Of a stretch of DNA of 64,000 nt, positions 20,600-27,912 are shown piece after piece; position 1 is the stretch's first letter, and every line of letters begins with the position of its first letter. The DNA is from Streptacidiphilus neutrinimicus (lineage in GTDB: Bacteria > Actinomycetota > Actinomycetes > Streptomycetales > Streptomycetaceae). Location: the NCBI RefSeq assembly GCF_000787815.1, contig NZ_BBPO01000003.1, forward strand, positions 157,032 through 221,031, in the 5' to 3' direction. The notes under the pieces are model-generated. The model saw nothing but the letters and a program-made list of their open reading frames with translations, was not told the origin of the DNA and made no database searches. The translations under genes and the position numbers were made by a program.

Positions 20600-21601
20600 T
20601 CAGTGGGAGAACCAGTCGAGGCGTTCGCCGTGGGGGCCGGTGAAGGCGACGGGCTTGCCGTCAAGGGCGAGGATGTTGACGCCGCGTTCGGTCGGAGCCG
20701 GATAGGGGAGGCGTGCGTCGATGTCCGTCAGGACGTCGGGGGCCTCGTTGGAGATCCAGCGGCAGGGCAGGTCCCGGACCGTGGTGGTGAAGGCGTGGCG
20801 GGCCTCGGACGGCAGGTAGCAGAGCACCGAGGTGTGGAAGACCACCGGCGTGCTGCCCTGCGGCGCGGCCGCGACCAGCTCGGCGACGCGGGCGTTGAGG
20901 TCGCCGCGCACGATCCGGGCCGGATCGGACGCGTCGCGGGCGACGGAGAGCGCGGCCCGGAGCCGGTCGAAGCGTGCCTGCTGGCCGGGCCAGACCAGGC
21001 TCTCCAGCCAGCGGGCGTCGTCTGCGTCGGCGGGGTCCAGCGGGTTGAGGTCCACCCCCGTGCGGGAGACGACCCGCGGCAGGCGGTCGGGCCGGGGGAG
21101 CGGGACGGGGCCGGTCGTCGCGCAGGGGATCGTCACCGGGCTCCCGTCTGCGCCGAACGCGGGGGTCCCGTCGTAGCGGTACCGGTAGCGGTCCGGGTAG
21201 AGGCAGAGCCCCGCCGAGGCGCCGACCTCTATCAGGGCCAGCGGCTGCGGGAGGGACGCGAGCAGCGGCAGCAGGGTCGCGCAGCGGCCCGCCTCGTTGG
21301 TCTGCGTGGCACGCGCCAGGATCACCGGACGCACCTCCTCCCAGTGGTCCAGCGCCCAGGCGACGAACGCGTCGCCGGAGTCGACCGGGCCGCCGAGATA
21401 GCGCACGGCGGCCAGCAGCAGGTTCGGCTGCCGCTTGATCGGCGGCAGCGCCGTCAGGCGCTCCACCAGCTCCGGCGACTCGGCGACGGCCACGCCGATC
21501 CGCTCGTAGGCGGGGGAGTGGTCCTTGGTGTGCACCGTCCCGAAGACGTGGTAGGCCTCGGCGGTCTCTTCGCGCAGCTGCTGCAGCTCGTCGGCGTTCA
21601 T
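20600..21601 (-). CDS. DUF2332 domain protein
   Basis: 333 residues starting MNADELQQLREE. Hallmarks of DUF2332 are LIEVGASAGLCLYPDRYRY, a glycine-rich acidic loop resembling SAM-binding motif I, followed by a strongly conserved aromatic/Arg run. WLESLVWPGQQ and a late VVFHTSVLCYLP strand are also typical. The fold may be methyltransferase-like (inference from the EVGASAG loop). No activity is known to me. It is divergent from the HTH-citrate synthase gene across a short AT-rich region with palindromes, and convergent with pimA. Confidence 0.82.
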   Translation of the reverse strand: MNADELQQLREETAEAYHVFGTVHTKDHSPAYERIGVAVAESPELVERLTALPPIKRQPNLLLAAVRYLGGPVDSGDAFVAWALDHWEEVRPVILARATQTNEAGRCATLLPLLASLPQPLALIEVGASAGLCLYPDRYRYRYDGTPAFGADGSPVTIPCATTGPVPLPRPDRLPRVVSRTGVDLNPLDPADADDARWLESLVWPGQQARFDRLRAALSVARDASDPARIVRGDLNARVAELVAAAPQGSTPVVFHTSVLCYLPSEARHAFTTTVRDLPCRWISNEAPDVLTDIDARLPYPAPTERGVNILALDGKPVAFTGPHGERLDWFSH

Positions 21602-21633
21602 ATTGCCAATCTCGCCCGGGTCGTCAATAGTTG

Positions 21634-21656
21634 TCAACGTTGATCGACTCAATCAA
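21634..21656. promoter_or_regulatory. Palindromic operator-like region between DUF2332 and citrate synthase genes
   Basis: Two inverted repeats overlap: a perfect 10-bp palindrome TCAACGTTGA (21634-21643), and TTGAT-N7-ATCAA (21640-21656). The stretch is unusually AT-rich for this genome and lies in the 77-base divergent promoter region. Confidence 0.5.
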
Positions 21657-21678
21657 TGTAAGAGCGGAGGCGGCGCAC

Positions 21679-22926
21679 ATGCCGGGTGCCGGTGGGGGAA
21701 TGCTGACGACGCAGCAGGCCGCGGAGCGGCTGGGGGTGAAGCCGCAGACGCTGTACGCGTACGTGAGCCGTGGGCTGATCACCCGCGTGCGCGCCGCCGA
21801 CGGCAAGGGGAGCCTCTTCGCGGCCGCCGACGTGGACGCCCTCGCCGACCGCGGCGCCGTGGGCCGCGGCGGTGCGGCCGGGGCCGCGCCCGCCATCCGC
21901 ACCGAGCTGACCCTGCTGGAGGACGACCGGCTGTTCTTCCGCGGTCGCGACGCGGCCGGGCTCGCCGAGCGGGGGACCTTCGAGGCGACGGCGGTGTGGC
22001 TGTGGACCGGCCGGGACGAGCCCGAGGCGCGGTTCGCCCCGCTGCGCCCCGGGCTGCGGGAGGCGGTGCGGGCCTGCGCCGACGCGCTGCCCGCCTCGGC
22101 ACGGGTGGTCGACCGTTTCAAGGCCGCCGTGCTGGCCGCGTCCGTGGCCGATCCGCTCAGTCTCGACCTGCGGCCGGAGAGCGTCGCCGCCACGGGCCGC
22201 GCGCTGATCGGCGCGCTGCTCGCCGCCGTGCCGGAGCGGAGCGCGGCCACGGGGGAGTCGGTGGCCGAGCGCCTCTGGGCGCGGCTGAGCGCGGACGCGC
22301 CGAGCGCGGAGGCGCTGCGGGCGTTGGACGCGGCGTTGACCCTGTTGGCCGACCACGACATCGCCACCTCCACCTACGCGGCCCGGCTCGCCGCGTCCAC
22401 CCGGGCCAATCCGTACGCCGTGGTCACCGCAGGCCTCGCCGTCCTCGACGGCCCGCTCCACGGCGGCGCGGGGGCGCTGGCCCGCCGTGTGCTCGTGCGC
22501 GCGCACGAGACCGACCCCGTCACCGCGCTGGCGGCGACCCTGCGCGAGACGGGCTCCGTCCCGGGCTTCGGCCACGTCCTCTACCGCACGCGCGACCCCC
22601 GGGCGGAGACGCTGCTGCGCCTGCTCGACCCGCTCCCGGACCCGCGCGGGCTGCGCGGCGTCACCGCCGAGCTGGTCCAGGTCGCGGCGGACCGCTTCGG
22701 CGCGTTCCCGAACAGCGACCTCGCCCTGGCCCTCCTCGCCGAGCTCTGCGCCTTCCCCCTGGACGCGGAGGAGGCGATCTTCGCGCTGGCGCGCACGGTC
22801 GGCTGGATCGCCCACGCCCTGGAGGAGTACGCGGCCCCGCCCCTCCGCCACCGGCCAGCCGGCCTCTACACCGGCCCGCGGCCCGGAGCCGGTGCAGCGG
22901 CTCTCCAGCCCCGGCGTGCCCGATAG
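21679..22926 (+). CDS. Citrate synthase-family protein with N-terminal helix-turn-helix
   Basis: 415 residues from ATG 21679 (GGAGG eight bases upstream). Residues about 8-60 form a MerR/excisionase-type HTH (TTQQAAERLGVKPQTLYAYV then RGLI). Residues 75-400 are citrate synthase: catalytic His261 (GPLHGGAG), His299 (GFGHVLYRTRDPRA) and Asp347 (PNSDLA) are all present, with a downstream Arg (LARTVGWIAHALEEY). Known: the enzyme condenses acetyl-CoA (or propionyl-CoA) with oxaloacetate. HTH-fused paralogues occur in actinobacteria and their role is unclear. The N-terminal HTH suggests DNA binding, possibly autoregulation through the adjacent palindromes. Confidence 0.88.
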   Translation: MPGAGGGMLTTQQAAERLGVKPQTLYAYVSRGLITRVRAADGKGSLFAAADVDALADRGAVGRGGAAGAAPAIRTELTLLEDDRLFFRGRDAAGLAERGTFEATAVWLWTGRDEPEARFAPLRPGLREAVRACADALPASARVVDRFKAAVLAASVADPLSLDLRPESVAATGRALIGALLAAVPERSAATGESVAERLWARLSADAPSAEALRALDAALTLLADHDIATSTYAARLAASTRANPYAVVTAGLAVLDGPLHGGAGALARRVLVRAHETDPVTALAATLRETGSVPGFGHVLYRTRDPRAETLLRLLDPLPDPRGLRGVTAELVQVAADRFGAFPNSDLALALLAELCAFPLDAEEAIFALARTVGWIAHALEEYAAPPLRHRPAGLYTGPRPGAGAAALQPRRAR

Positions 22927-22937: not shown

Positions 22938-23477
22938 GTGAGCACATGGATCTGGATCGGCGTCGTCGTCCTCGCCTTCGGGCTGTACCTGAGCTGGACC
23001 GCCGGGCGTCTCGATCGGCTGCACGCGCGGATCGACGCGGCGCGGGCCGCGTTGGACGCGGCGCTGCTGCGGCGCGCCTCCGGTGCGCTGGAGCTGGGGA
23101 CGTCGACGATGCTGGACCCGGCCGCGTCGATCCTGCTCTACCAGGCCGCGCACGCCGCGCGGACCGCGCAGGAGGACGCCCGGGAGGTCGCCGAGAGCGA
23201 GCTCTCGCAGGCGCTGCGCGCCGTCTTCGCGGAGCAGGAGCAACTGGAGGCGCTGGCCGCGCTGCCCGGCGGCGCGGAGGCGCTCGTGGAGCTGGGCGAG
23301 GCCGTGCGACGGGTGCCGATGGCACGGCGGTTCCACAACGACTCGGTACGCGCGGCGCGCGCGGTGCGGCGGCACCGGATCGTCCGGCTGTTCCGCCTGG
23401 CGGGTCGCGCGCCCTTCCCGTTGGCCTTCGAGATGGACGACGAGCCGCCGCGCACACTCGAAGCAGTACGCACCTGA
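22938..23477 (+). CDS. Membrane-anchored coiled-coil protein of unknown function
   Basis: 179 residues. An N-terminal TM segment (WIWIGVVVLAFGLYLSW, residues 4-20) is followed by long Ala/Glu/Arg-rich helices with heptad spacing, for example RLDRLHARIDAARAALDAAL. This is the layout of LemA-like proteins, although I do not see the full LemA signature. The C terminus contains RVPMARRFHNDSVRAARAVR and a Pro/Phe segment that also recalls LemA. The bulk should be cytoplasmic. GTG start without an SD sequence. It lies 11 bases after the citrate synthase gene. Confidence 0.7.
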   Translation: MSTWIWIGVVVLAFGLYLSWTAGRLDRLHARIDAARAALDAALLRRASGALELGTSTMLDPAASILLYQAAHAARTAQEDAREVAESELSQALRAVFAEQEQLEALAALPGGAEALVELGEAVRRVPMARRFHNDSVRAARAVRRHRIVRLFRLAGRAPFPLAFEMDDEPPRTLEAVRT

Positions 23478-23719: not shown

Positions 23720-25561
23720 ATGCCACGCACACCCCGAAGAACCCGCACCCTGGCGCTGGGCGCCATGCTGACGACCGTCGCACTCGCGGCCGCCGGCTGT
23801 TCCTCCGGAAAACCCGCGCCCGGTCCCAGCCAGGGGACCTCCTCCGACAACGCGGCCAACATCAACGCCACGGGTCAGCCGGTCAAGGGCGGCACGCTCA
23901 AGCTGATCGGCAGCGGAGACGTCGACCACCTCGACACCGCCAGCGGCTACTACACGGCCACGTACACCCTCGAACGCGCCTACACCCGACAGCTGTTCAC
24001 CTACCCGGCGTCGACGGACCCGACCAAGTCCACCACGATCGTCCCGGACCTGGCCACCGAGATTCCGACCACCGCCAACAACGGGATCAGCGCGGACGGC
24101 CTCACCTACACGGTCCACCTGCGCCCGGATGCGATGTGGGACACCTCCCCGGCCCGCGCGGTCACCGCCCAGGACGAGGTCCTGGGCATGAAGCGGCTGT
24201 GCAACCCGACGCCCAACGCGGTCGGCGCGCCGGGCTACTACGAGGGCGTCATCGCCGGCTTCCAGCAGTACTGCGACGGTTTCGCCAAGGTCAGCCCGAC
24301 CATCCCGGCGATCAAGGCCTACATCGACGGCCACGACATCTCCGGCATCAAGGCCGTGGACGCCACGACCGTCCAGTTCACGCTGGTGAAGAAGGCCAAC
24401 GACTTCCTGAACATCCTGGCGATGCCGTTCTCGTCGCCGGCGCCCGTGGAGTACCTGAACTACCTCCCGGACGACGCCAACTTCCGCTCGCACACGATCT
24501 CCGACGGTCCGTACGCCATCACGTCGTACACCGCCAACCAGTCGATCAAGCTGGACCGGAACCCGGCCTGGACCAAGGCGTCCGACCCGGCCCGCGACGC
24601 CTACGTCGACCACATCACCGTCACCGAGGGCCAGGACGAGGGCCCGGTGCAGCAGCAGCTCCAGGCGGGCACCGCCGACATGCAGTGGGACACCACCGTG
24701 CCGACCGCCTCCGTGCCGGCGCTGAAGGCCACCAAGGACCCGCGGCTGGGCGTCTACCCCTCCGGCAGCACCAACCCGTTCCTGGTCTTCAACGAGCAGA
24801 GTCCGAGCAACCAGGGCGCGCTCGGCAAGGTGGCGGTGCGTCAGGCGCTGGAGTACGCGGTCGACAAGGTCGCGATCGGCCAGATCTACGGCGGCCCCAC
24901 GCTCAACACCCCCCTGGGCCAGGCCATCCCGCCGGGCAGCCTCGGCTACGAGAAGTACGACGCGTACCCGACCCCGGGCAGCAAGGGCGACCCGGCCAAG
25001 TGCAAGTCGATGCTGGCCGCAGCCGGTTACCCCAACGGTCTGGTGCTCAAGGACCTGGCCCGCAACGCCGGCAAGCACCCGGCCGTGGCCCAGTCCGTCC
25101 AGGCGGACTTCAAGGCCTGCGGCGTCACCACGCAGATCGTCCCGGTCTCGCAGGGCGACTACTACGGCAAGTACCTGAACCTGCCGAGCGCCGCGAAGGC
25201 GGGCAGCTGGGACATCACCGAGCCTGGCTGGGTGCCGGACTGGTTCGGCAACAACGGCCGCGCCAACCTCGAGCCGCTCTTCGACGGCCGCAACTACGGC
25301 CCCGGCTCGACCGACTGGGGCGACTACAACAGTCCGGCCTTCAACGCCCTGCTCGACCAGGCCATGACCGCGCCCGACCAGGCCACGGCCGAGTCGCTGT
25401 GGCACCAGGCCGACCAGCAGGTCATGAAGGACGCGGCGATCATCCCGTTCGAGACGCAGAACGACGCGATGTTCCGGTCCAGCCGGGTCCACAACGCGAT
25501 CTTCGAGCTGTTCTCGCAGAACTACGACGTCACCGAGGTCTGGCTCTCGCCCGGCAGCTGA
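23720..25561 (+). CDS. Oligopeptide-type ABC transporter substrate-binding lipoprotein
   Basis: 613 residues. Signal peptide with Arg-rich n-region, hydrophobic stretch and lipobox LAAAGC, so Cys27 should be lipidated and the protein anchored outside the cell membrane. The rest matches the SBP_bac_5 family (VPDLATEIPTTANNGISADG, YTVHLRPDAMWDT, SDGPYAITSY, RQALEYAVDK, DITEPGWVPDWFGNNG). Known: the family captures peptides, nickel or other solutes for ABC import. Ligand not predictable. CAGGAGG precedes the ATG. The cognate ATPases and permeases follow after two hairpins at 25576-25647. Confidence 0.94.
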   Translation: MPRTPRRTRTLALGAMLTTVALAAAGCSSGKPAPGPSQGTSSDNAANINATGQPVKGGTLKLIGSGDVDHLDTASGYYTATYTLERAYTRQLFTYPASTDPTKSTTIVPDLATEIPTTANNGISADGLTYTVHLRPDAMWDTSPARAVTAQDEVLGMKRLCNPTPNAVGAPGYYEGVIAGFQQYCDGFAKVSPTIPAIKAYIDGHDISGIKAVDATTVQFTLVKKANDFLNILAMPFSSPAPVEYLNYLPDDANFRSHTISDGPYAITSYTANQSIKLDRNPAWTKASDPARDAYVDHITVTEGQDEGPVQQQLQAGTADMQWDTTVPTASVPALKATKDPRLGVYPSGSTNPFLVFNEQSPSNQGALGKVAVRQALEYAVDKVAIGQIYGGPTLNTPLGQAIPPGSLGYEKYDAYPTPGSKGDPAKCKSMLAAAGYPNGLVLKDLARNAGKHPAVAQSVQADFKACGVTTQIVPVSQGDYYGKYLNLPSAAKAGSWDITEPGWVPDWFGNNGRANLEPLFDGRNYGPGSTDWGDYNSPAFNALLDQAMTAPDQATAESLWHQADQQVMKDAAIIPFETQNDAMFRSSRVHNAIFELFSQNYDVTEVWLSPGS

Positions 25562-25575
25562 GCCGCAGCTGACGC

Positions 25576-25601
25576 GCCGTCGGCTCCTCGAAGCCGACGG
25601 C
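25576..25601 (+). terminator. Hairpin 1 between binding-protein gene and transporter genes
   Basis: Perfect 10-bp stem GCCGTCGGCT / AGCCGACGGC with a 6-base loop, 15 bases after the stop of the binding-protein gene. Probably a partial terminator or 3'-end stabiliser that keeps the binding protein in excess. Confidence 0.7.
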
Positions 25602-25613
25602 ACCGTGGCCCCA

Positions 25614-25647
25614 CCCCGTCCGGCACGGCGACCCCGTGCCGGCGGGG
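25614..25647 (+). terminator. Hairpin 2 between binding-protein gene and transporter genes
   Basis: Stem CCCCG-CCGGCACGG / CCGTGCCGG-CGGGG with one bulged T and a 5-base loop, directly after hairpin 1. Confidence 0.6.
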
Positions 25648-25720
25648 TCCCGCATGTCCCCACGCCCCAACGGGCCGGGGGCGCGAGCCCCCCTCGCCCG
25701 TTCATGAGCTGCGAGGCGCC

Positions 25721-26806
25721 ATGAGCCTTCTCGAGGTCTCCGACCTCCATGTCTCCTTCCGCACCACCGACGGCGACGTCCAGGCGGTGCGAGGGGTCTC
25801 CTTCGAACTCGATGCCGGCCGCACCCTGGGCATCGTCGGCGAGTCCGGTTCGGGCAAGAGCGTCTGCACCCAGACGCTGCTCGGCCTGACGACCGGCGCA
25901 CGCGTCCGCGGCACCGCCCGCTTCGAGGGCGAGGACCTGCTCTCCGTGAGCGAGGACGAGTTCCGCGCGGTGCGCGGCGCGAAGATCGCGGCGATCTTCC
26001 AGGACCCGCTCTCCAGCCTGCACCCGCTCTACAAGGTGGGTTGGCAGATCGTGGAGATGATCCGCGCCCACGAGCCGGTGAACCGGGCGGTGGCCCGCAG
26101 GCGCGCCGTCGACCTGCTCGGCCTGGTCGGCATCCCGCACCCCGCTCAGCGCATCGACGACTACCCGCACCAGTTCTCCGGCGGCATGCGCCAACGCGCG
26201 CTCATCGCCATGGCGTTGGCGCTGGATCCGAAGCTCGTGATCGCGGACGAGCCCACCACCGCCCTCGACGCCACCGTGCAGGCCCAGATCCTGGACCTGC
26301 TGCTGCGGTTGCAGCAGGAGAACGGGATGGCGCTGATCATGATCACGCACGATCTCGGCGTCATCGCCGGTCTCGCGGACGAGGTCATGGTCATGTACGC
26401 GGGCCGCGCCGCCGAGCGCGCGGACCGGCGCGGGCTCTACTACCGCGCCCACCACCCCTACACCAACGGCCTGTTGGAGTCGATCCCGTCCTCCGGCGCG
26501 GCCGGCGCCCGGCTGCGCCCGATCCCCGGCCAGCCGCCGAGCCTGATCCGCCTGCCCTCCGGCTGCGCCTTCCACCCGCGCTGCGAGTTCGCCATGGACC
26601 GTTGCACCCGCGAGCAGCCCGAGCTGGTCCCCGTCGAAGACGGAGTCCGGCACGCCTCCGCCTGCTGGCTGCCGGGCCGTCTGCTCGGCACGACCGAGGA
26701 GATGAAGCGGGCCCGGCAGGACGCCGGCGCCGCCGGACGCACGGTGGAACGCGTGCCGGGACAGAGCACGGGCCAGGACGCAGCAGTCGAGGAAGGCGCG
26801 GCATGA
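25721..26806 (+). CDS. Oligopeptide ABC transporter ATP-binding protein (OppD/DppD-like)
   Basis: 361 residues. Walker A GESGSGKS (about residue 40), Q-loop IFQDPLSSLHPLYKVG, signature FSGGMRQRALIAMAL, Walker B LVIADEPTTALD and the H-loop ITHDLG are complete. The C-terminal oligopeptide/dipeptide extension contains LPSGCAFHPRCEFAMDRC, the cysteine cluster that binds an iron-sulfur centre in some DppD/OppD proteins. A 40-residue hydrophilic tail follows. It energises import together with the OppF-like partner. The stop overlaps the next start (ATGA). Confidence 0.95.
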   Translation: MSLLEVSDLHVSFRTTDGDVQAVRGVSFELDAGRTLGIVGESGSGKSVCTQTLLGLTTGARVRGTARFEGEDLLSVSEDEFRAVRGAKIAAIFQDPLSSLHPLYKVGWQIVEMIRAHEPVNRAVARRRAVDLLGLVGIPHPAQRIDDYPHQFSGGMRQRALIAMALALDPKLVIADEPTTALDATVQAQILDLLLRLQQENGMALIMITHDLGVIAGLADEVMVMYAGRAAERADRRGLYYRAHHPYTNGLLESIPSSGAAGARLRPIPGQPPSLIRLPSGCAFHPRCEFAMDRCTREQPELVPVEDGVRHASACWLPGRLLGTTEEMKRARQDAGAAGRTVERVPGQSTGQDAAVEEGAA

Positions 26807-27912
26807 GCACCGACAGCACGAGCGGCGGCGCCGAGGTGGGGCAGCCCCCGACGGCCGAGTCGGCGGCGACCGGGCCGCTGGTCGAGGTCCGGGAGGCGGT
26901 CAAGTACTTCCCGATCAGGCAGGGCATCGTCTTCAAGCGCGAGGCGGGCCGCGTCCACGCCGTCGAGGGCGTGTCCCTCACGGTCCGCCGCGGCGAGACG
27001 CTGGGCCTGGTCGGCGAGACCGGGTGCGGCAAGTCGACCCTGGCCCGGTGCATCACCAAGCTGCACCCGCTGACGTCCGGGACGCTGCTGTTCGAGGGCC
27101 AGGACATCACCGGACTCAGCCGGTCCCAGGTGCGCCCGTTCCGGCGCCGGATGCAGATGATCTTCCAGGACCCGTACGGCTCGCTCAACCCGCGCCGCCG
27201 GGTCGGCTCGATCATCGGCGACCCCTTCGCCATCCACGGCGAGGGGGCACGGGACGAGCGCAAGCCCAAGGTCCAGGAGCTGATGGAGCTGGTCGGGCTC
27301 AACCCCGAGCACTACAACCGGTTCCCCGCCGAGTTCTCCGGCGGCCAGCGCCAGCGCATCGGCGTCGCGCGGGCGCTCGCGCTCAAGCCCAGCCTGATCG
27401 TCGCCGACGAGCCGGTCTCCGCGCTGGACGTGTCGATCCAGGCGCAGATCCTCAACCTGCTGGAGGACCTCCAGCGGGAGTTCGGGCTGACCTACGTGTT
27501 CATCAGCCACGACCTGTCCGTGGTGCGGCACGTCAGCGACCGGATCGCGGTGATGTACCTGGGGCAGGTCGTCGAACTGGCCGGGTCCGAGGAACTGCAC
27601 GGCCGACCACGTCACCCGTACACCAACGCCCTGCTCTCGGCGGCGTCGGTCGCCGACCCCGACCAGGCGGCGGCCCGGCAGCGGATCGTGCTCACCGGGG
27701 ACGTGCCGTCCCCGATCGCGCCGCCCACCGGCTGCCGGTTCCATCCGCGCTGTCCCAAGGCGCAGGAGATCTGCGTGGAGCAGACCCCGCCGCTGGTCGC
27801 CCGTGCGGGCGATCCCGACTCACACCTGACGGCCTGTCACTTCCCGGTGGCGCCGGGAGAGGACCTCACCCGCGTCACCGCGACCATTCCCGAGGAGGAG
27901 CGGGCCGAATGA
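26803..27912 (+). CDS. Oligopeptide ABC transporter ATP-binding protein (OppF/DppF-like)
   Basis: 369 residues from ATG 26803, which overlaps the stop of the previous gene and is preceded by GAGGAAGG. Walker [11 protein letters not shown]-loop [13 protein letters not shown], signature [15 protein letters not shown], Walker [13 protein letters not shown] and ISHDLSVV are intact. The C-terminal extension has [17 protein letters not shown], again with the four-cysteine pattern. Second ATPase of the importer. The first 25 residues are a disordered Ser/Gly/Ala tail. Confidence 0.95.

Follow-up and report, generated by a model that had tools for sequence, protein, structure and literature searches.

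A helix-turn-helix-citrate synthase fusion as a probable autoregulatory transcription factor with a conserved operator-like element in Streptacidiphilus neutrinimicus and other bacteria

A window of 64,000 nucleotides from the acidophilic soil actinomycete Streptacidiphilus neutrinimicus (contig NZ_BBPO01000003.1) carries a gene in which a helix-turn-helix (HTH) domain is fused to a citrate synthase (CS) domain with intact active-site residues. Beside it lies a single conserved operator-like element, which co-occurs with the gene and is conserved across phyla. Judged from the sequence and its comparison, the fusion protein, here called HTH-CS, is probably a one-component, autoregulatory local transcription factor, in which the CS fold would serve as the effector domain and which would control the divergently transcribed gene. 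If so, HTH-CS would represent a family of gene switches, so far little noticed, in which the fold of a central-metabolism enzyme acts as the sensor.

The fusion protein and its active site

The HTH-CS gene (21679-22926, plus strand) encodes 415 amino acids. The mechanical open reading frame opens at TTG 21631, and ATG 21700 is also possible; the likely start is ATG 21679, which stands behind a ribosome-binding site, GGAGG, at 21666-21670 on the same strand. Position 21634, given as the gene start in the earlier note, is the first base of a palindrome. With the likely start at ATG 21679, both palindromes described below would thus be intergenic.

The winged HTH domain occupies residues 8-58 (21700-21852, plus strand), as indicated by Pfam HTH_17 (33.1 bits against a cut-off of 27) and by the secondary structure of the AlphaFold2 model, and contains the recognition region KPQTLYAYVSRG. 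The Pfam models MerR (27.1 against 28.2) and MerR_1 (19.2 against 21.6) fell just under their cut-offs, as did the NCBIfam model 'excise' (27.0 against 28.8), and the NCBIfam BldC model gave only 12.7 bits against a cut-off of 77. The CS domain follows at residues 71-386 (21889-22836, plus strand), with a Citrate_synt match of 194 bits. Its best structural matches by Foldseek were all CS or 2-methylcitrate synthase (E 2.5e-14), and the C-terminal domain thus has the fold of the citrate synthase superfamily by both Pfam and Foldseek. The CS equivalog and subfamily models of NCBIfam remained far under their cut-offs, and the substrate is not nameable from these models. The fusion of an HTH, read as MerR/excisionase-type in the earlier note, with a CS that keeps all the catalytic residues checked was borne out.

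In the AlphaFold2 model, built from 35 orthologues (mean pLDDT 87.6), a winged HTH is followed by a short linker of low confidence (residues 64-66) and then by the CS domain. The long dimerisation helix (coiled coil) of the MerR type is absent from this model, in which a short helix of residues 49-64 leads through the short linker into the CS domain. A profile built from HTH sequences of several phyla had structures of BldC as its nearest solved relatives (6amk, E 0.006; 6ama, E 0.012). BldC is a Streptomyces protein with a MerR-like HTH, but it is a stand-alone protein of 68 residues that forms multimers on direct repeats (PMC5859096), whereas HTH-CS carries a CS domain and its predicted site is a dyad.

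The catalytic His-His-Asp set corresponds to His261, His299 and Asp347, and the oxaloacetate-binding arginines to Arg308, Arg372 and Arg392; all six are present, Arg392 just past the end of the CS domain and the others inside it. Five of them (His261, Arg308, Asp347, Arg372 and Arg392) were found in 99 of 99 actinomycete HTH-CS sequences and His299 in 98 of 99, and all six in 27 of 27 cross-phylum sequences, that of the window included. The recognition region, T(L/V/I)YA(Y/N)(V/A)SRG, is nearly invariant across phyla, which would be expected of a single family of proteins recognizing a single site, and its conservation equals that of the active site.

HTH-CS proteins form one clade, and a branch with support 100/99 separates them from the CSs encoded beside them in Streptomyces and other genera (partner CSs), in a tree that warns of long branches and in which the CS2 of this genome also falls among the partner CSs. 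The gene described here, an HTH fused to a CS, within this single clade and with a TCAANNTTGAT...ATCAA element nearby, is thus of the citA3 type. The partner CSs carry Glu at the position of the catalytic Asp in all 100 rows covering it, and so does CitA of Mycobacterium tuberculosis, a solved relative of the partner type, whereas HTH-CS keeps Asp; it is therefore the HTH protein that has the textbook active site. The S. neutrinimicus genome has three CS genes in all, and one unlinked copy of the partner type (contig C179:90632-91645) also has Glu.

HTH-CS would thus either turn over a substrate or need the whole site to sense one. In the former case, HTH-CS would be a true trigger enzyme, a sub-case that shares the DNA-binding part of the autoregulator explanation: it would produce citrate or something related, and, as with PutA, substrate turnover would determine when it leaves the DNA and when it returns, which makes catalysis part of the switch. 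Such a role seems possible but is rather doubtful: the active-site residues are invariant over phyla, more than a dead sensor would need, and the catalytic Asp is kept where the partner CSs have Glu, but the same conservation could result from ligand sensing by itself.

The operator-like element and the divergent promoters

The divergent gene encodes a DUF2332 protein (20600-21601, minus strand; PF10094, 258.5 bits) and is the predicted target of HTH-CS. Its AlphaFold2 model, from 5 sequences, reached a pLDDT of 47 and was set aside. The most likely start of the DUF2332 gene is ATG 21601, which would leave an intergenic region of 77 bp (21602-21678) between the two genes. Within this region are located the palindrome TCAACGTTGA at 21634-21643, the left part of the predicted operator, and the dyad TTGAT-N7-ATCAA (TTGATCGACTCAATCAA) at 21640-21656, its predicted core. 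Each is the sole one of its kind in the window, and both share TTGA at 21640-21643, so that the two look like one composite element. The palindromes which the earlier note had placed upstream of the start are thus real, intergenic, unique in the window and, as described below, conserved.

Scans with exact patterns rather than a weight matrix detected TCAAYRTTGAY-N1-9-TCAAY once in the whole 8.4-Mb genome, at the HTH-CS locus, and the reversed control pattern not at all. A slightly stricter composite pattern was found exactly once per genome in 18 of 20 relatives (7.7-10.9 Mb), its reversed control never; the two exceptions were an Amycolatopsis, whose site deviates, and S. rishiriensis, which has none. 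Chance occurrence of the palindromes was ruled out by these counts and reversed controls, together with the shuffles described below.

The predicted -35 of the DUF2332 promoter, TTGACA at 21632-21637 (minus strand), overlaps the predicted operator, and therefore protein bound there would cover the -35 of the divergent gene. The predicted -10, GAGATT at 21608-21613 (minus strand), is separated from TTGACA by 18 bp and from ATG 21601 by 6 bp, which would make the transcript leaderless. Of 105 actinomycete loci, 101 carry TCAANNTTGACA in the orientation of the DUF2332 promoter. GAGATT is kept at the equivalent place in five Streptacidiphilus and two Kitasatospora loci.

On the plus strand, a possible HTH-CS promoter at 21631-21662 consists of TTGTCA, a 20-bp spacer holding the dyad, and TGTAAG, with a spacing like the 19-20 bp of MerR promoters. 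This predicted arrangement, TTGTCA-N20-TATACG/TGTACG/TGTAAG with the dyad in the spacer, was found in all five Streptacidiphilus loci (TATACG replacing TGTAAG in three of the five) and its geometry was not evident elsewhere. In the Streptomyces loci, GGATACGGTG is conserved a few bases upstream of the HTH-CS ATG and resembles the -10 of a leaderless transcript.

Conservation of the element with the gene

The earlier note implied that such a fusion is rare, but the HTH-CS gene was present in 236 of 395 sampled genomes of the family Streptomycetaceae and in 5 of 14 of the genus Streptacidiphilus, to which the genome belongs, with the relatives S. melanogenes, S. anmyonensis, S. pinicola and S. 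jiangxiensis. The motif was detected in 221 of the 236 genomes with the gene, leaving 15 without, as against 3 of the 159 genomes lacking the gene, 156 having neither (Fisher p about 1e-87, a value that ignores the relatedness of the species, whose trials are not independent). The three genomes with the motif but no detected gene may hold orphan sites or pseudogenes, or may reflect limits of detection. The family counts, the matches in several phyla and the clade tree ruled out that the fusion is a rare or recent event confined to this genome. The distance from the site to the HTH-CS gene match downstream was 56-99 bp in the 20 genomes inspected manually.

The consensus anchored over 95 Actinomycetota was TGTCAATaTTGATTgAATCAAT, and TCAANNTTGA is kept in 5 of 5 Streptacidiphilus, in 95 of 96 other Actinomycetota and in 18 of 24 upstream regions of other phyla. 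The dyad TTGAT-N7-ATCAA is conserved in all five Streptacidiphilus and is common to this genus and the phyla outside Actinomycetota. In S. rishiriensis, HTH-CS is retained, but the divergent CS and the operator-like site are both gone.

Outside Actinomycetota, tblastn against plasmid records, a sample biased to large replicons, detected HTH-CS genes in Alpha-, Beta- and Gammaproteobacteria and in Deinococcus, and the motif thus spans three phyla, Actinomycetota included. Among the 24 upstream regions, several of them from close relatives (Ensifer, Burkholderia) so that the independent number is smaller, TTGAY-N7-RTCAA was likewise present in 18, and either this or TCAANNTTGA in 20. Shuffles that keep the dinucleotides gave means of 0.08 for TCAANNTTGA, 0.04 for TTGAY-N7-RTCAA and 0.23 for either (maximum 2). 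The site of Caballeronia Lep1P3, TCAATCTTGATCGACTCAATCAA, matches that of the window except for the central two bases of the left-hand palindrome. In Roseomonas gilardii, HTH-CS beside DUF2332 (locus 1253-2371) is split over frames, by frameshifts or as a pseudogene, and TTGAT-N7-ATCAA is still present at 2397.

The four regions lacking the site belong to Burkholderia and Paraburkholderia genes, which lie inside an operon in the three with annotated records. For Burkholderia cepacia, a full site, TCAATATTGATTGGTTCGATCAA, was found between the start of the HTH-CS operon and a divergent D-glycerate dehydrogenase gene; this promoter was inspected only after the other sites were known, and the site there is therefore an independent hit for the motif. 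The presence or absence of the palindromes upstream of orthologues, which the earlier note had named as the point to check, was thus settled in favor of their presence, both within Actinomycetota and outside it.

Some observations run counter to the autoregulator reading, namely the 15 family genomes with the gene but without the exact site, the change of spacing between lineages (N3 or N7), and the strictly invariant catalytic set, which would also fit a plain enzyme. It is nevertheless unlikely that HTH-CS is a citrate or 2-methylcitrate synthase isoenzyme, in which the HTH is vestigial or serves as a module for oligomerisation or localisation and the palindrome is read by another factor. 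Such an isoenzyme agrees with the retention of all six active-site residues and with the pairing of HTH-CS with a second CS in Streptomyces, but not with a recognition region as conserved as the active site, with a motif that tracks the gene over genomes and phyla and, for the internal operon gene of B. cepacia, is found at the operon promoter, or with the joint loss of divergent CS and site in S. rishiriensis while the gene was kept.

Proposed mode of regulation and the neighboring genes

CS enzymes are dimers. Two HTHs would therefore be paired, fitting a dyad, and HTH-CS as the proposed autoregulator, its winged HTHs paired through the CS dimer, would bind one site per genome, TCAANNTTGAT-N3 or N7-ATCAA, in the region that separates its gene from the divergent metabolic gene. 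Bound over the DUF2332 -35 and just upstream of its own start, it would most simply repress both DUF2332 and its own gene. As an alternative to repression, the resemblance of the plus-strand layout to a MerR promoter makes activation of its own gene by DNA distortion possible. Occupation of the CS active site by a 2-oxoacid (oxaloacetate or a relative), an acyl-CoA or both would alter how the domain closes or how the dimer is arranged, and the DNA-bound HTH-CS would thereby be released or switched.

The earlier note had proposed that the enzyme binds its own promoter and may control the divergent gene. Comparison strongly supports this proposal, through the conserved site and its overlap with the DUF2332 -35; binding by HTH-CS itself we infer, as we do the sign of regulation, the ligand and the turnover of substrate. 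The response to oxaloacetate or acyl-CoA, also proposed there, is made plausible by the invariant active site.

In Streptomyces coelicolor, citA3 (SCO5831) and citA4 have been described as putative CSs, and the response regulator MtrA binds between the two genes and lowers both (PMC12323332), and therefore other regulators act there. The protein level of SCO5831 varies with phosphate supply in S. lividans (PMC9739823), and in both reports SCO5831 was treated as a putative enzyme, not as a regulator (PMC12323332, PMC9739823). The SCO5831/SCO5832 pair, matched to the present locus by layout and literature, is alike in having HTH-CS and the same operator-like motif in a divergent intergenic region, the sequence figures, about 47-52% identity, coming from other Streptomyces orthologues. 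The Streptomyces loci differ in that the divergent gene is a second CS, with Glu at the catalytic Asp position, instead of DUF2332, and in a spacing of N3 instead of N7. That the conserved element is the operator of another regulator or no more than a promoter pair, with HTH-CS not binding, is very improbable: MtrA does act at citA3-citA4, GlnR does control citA and citA4 in Saccharopolyspora erythraea (PMC10704036) and TTGACA in the motif does read as a -35, but a global regulator would have many sites where the composite site occurs about once per genome, the site is unlike the MtrA consensus GTAACC-N5-GTAACC, the element recurs with the gene in Proteobacteria and Deinococcus, and its conservation reaches well past the -35 hexamer.

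With HTH-CS as a proposed autoregulator, several known systems can be compared. MocR/GabR proteins are also one-component regulators with an enzyme-fold effector domain and a local, usually divergent target, but they combine a GntR-type HTH with an aminotransferase fold, and MocR senses its ligand via PLP, which has no counterpart in HTH-CS; neither a GntR HTH nor an aminotransferase class I/II domain was among the Pfam matches of the protein. BzdR has an enzyme fold of the shikimate kinase-like type. It is a published case of an enzyme that became a regulator through the acquisition of a DNA-binding domain (PMC3602430), but with another enzyme fold and HTH, whereas the CS domain of HTH-CS keeps all the catalytic residues checked. 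An enzyme fold as effector domain is thus already known from MocR/GabR and BzdR (PMC8739950, PMC3602430). PutA and Caulobacter CitA are similar as metabolic enzymes that also control gene expression or the cell cycle, but Caulobacter CitA acts independently of its enzymatic activity and is GltA-like (65% identical to E. coli GltA), with no HTH mentioned (PMC7083601). In the open-access full-text literature searched, no description of HTH-CS as a regulator was found.

We give an even chance to the wider proposal that HTH-CS is an undescribed multi-phylum class of transcription factors, with one operator code and a turnover-capable CS sensor, wired independently to many local genes of 2-oxoacid and CoA metabolism. 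If this subset of proteins are regulators, the common annotation 'citrate synthase family protein' is misleading, the extra CS copies of Streptomyces and Rhizobiaceae acquire a function, and it becomes possible to test whether intermediates of central metabolism act directly on transcription. With such an operator code, targets would be predictable from sequence, and the HTH-CS fold might be used as it stands to build biosensors of oxoacids or CoA esters.

The divergent gene encodes a second CS in Streptomyces, Kitasatospora, Actinoplanes, Ensifer and Agrobacterium, DUF2332 in all five Streptacidiphilus with HTH-CS and also in Pseudoroseomonas and Roseomonas (both Acetobacteraceae), a CoA transferase in Comamonas, Azospirillum and Ewingella, a pyruvate carboxyltransferase in two Deinococcus, and an MFS transporter in Thioclava and Caballeronia; in two Comamonadaceae, a divergent 2-hydroxyacid dehydrogenase-FAH-SDR operon takes this place. 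The neighbors vary while HTH, CS and site persist, and this is therefore the pattern of a local regulator. Like CS, many of the neighbors have 2-oxoacids or CoA esters as substrates, which is the sole hint to the ligand.

In the five Streptacidiphilus genomes, the DUF2332/HTH-CS pair sits between a PimA-like glycosyltransferase gene and a small ORF (22940-23476), and no partner CS of the Streptomyces type adjoins HTH-CS in genomes of this genus. In nine Streptacidiphilus genomes without HTH-CS, the glycosyltransferase gene and the small ORF adjoin each other, although for one of the nine a second search re-detected the glycosyltransferase only, the small ORF being the match that had brought the locus in. 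From this arrangement, the pair and its intergenic region appear to move as one unit, an insertion cassette with its own predicted operator. The small ORF, directly after HTH-CS, matched no Pfam or NCBIfam family and was found in 14 of 14 genus genomes. After the locus, an operon for an oligopeptide-type ABC transporter (SBP_bac_5 and two ATPase-like ORFs) extends over 23720-27912.
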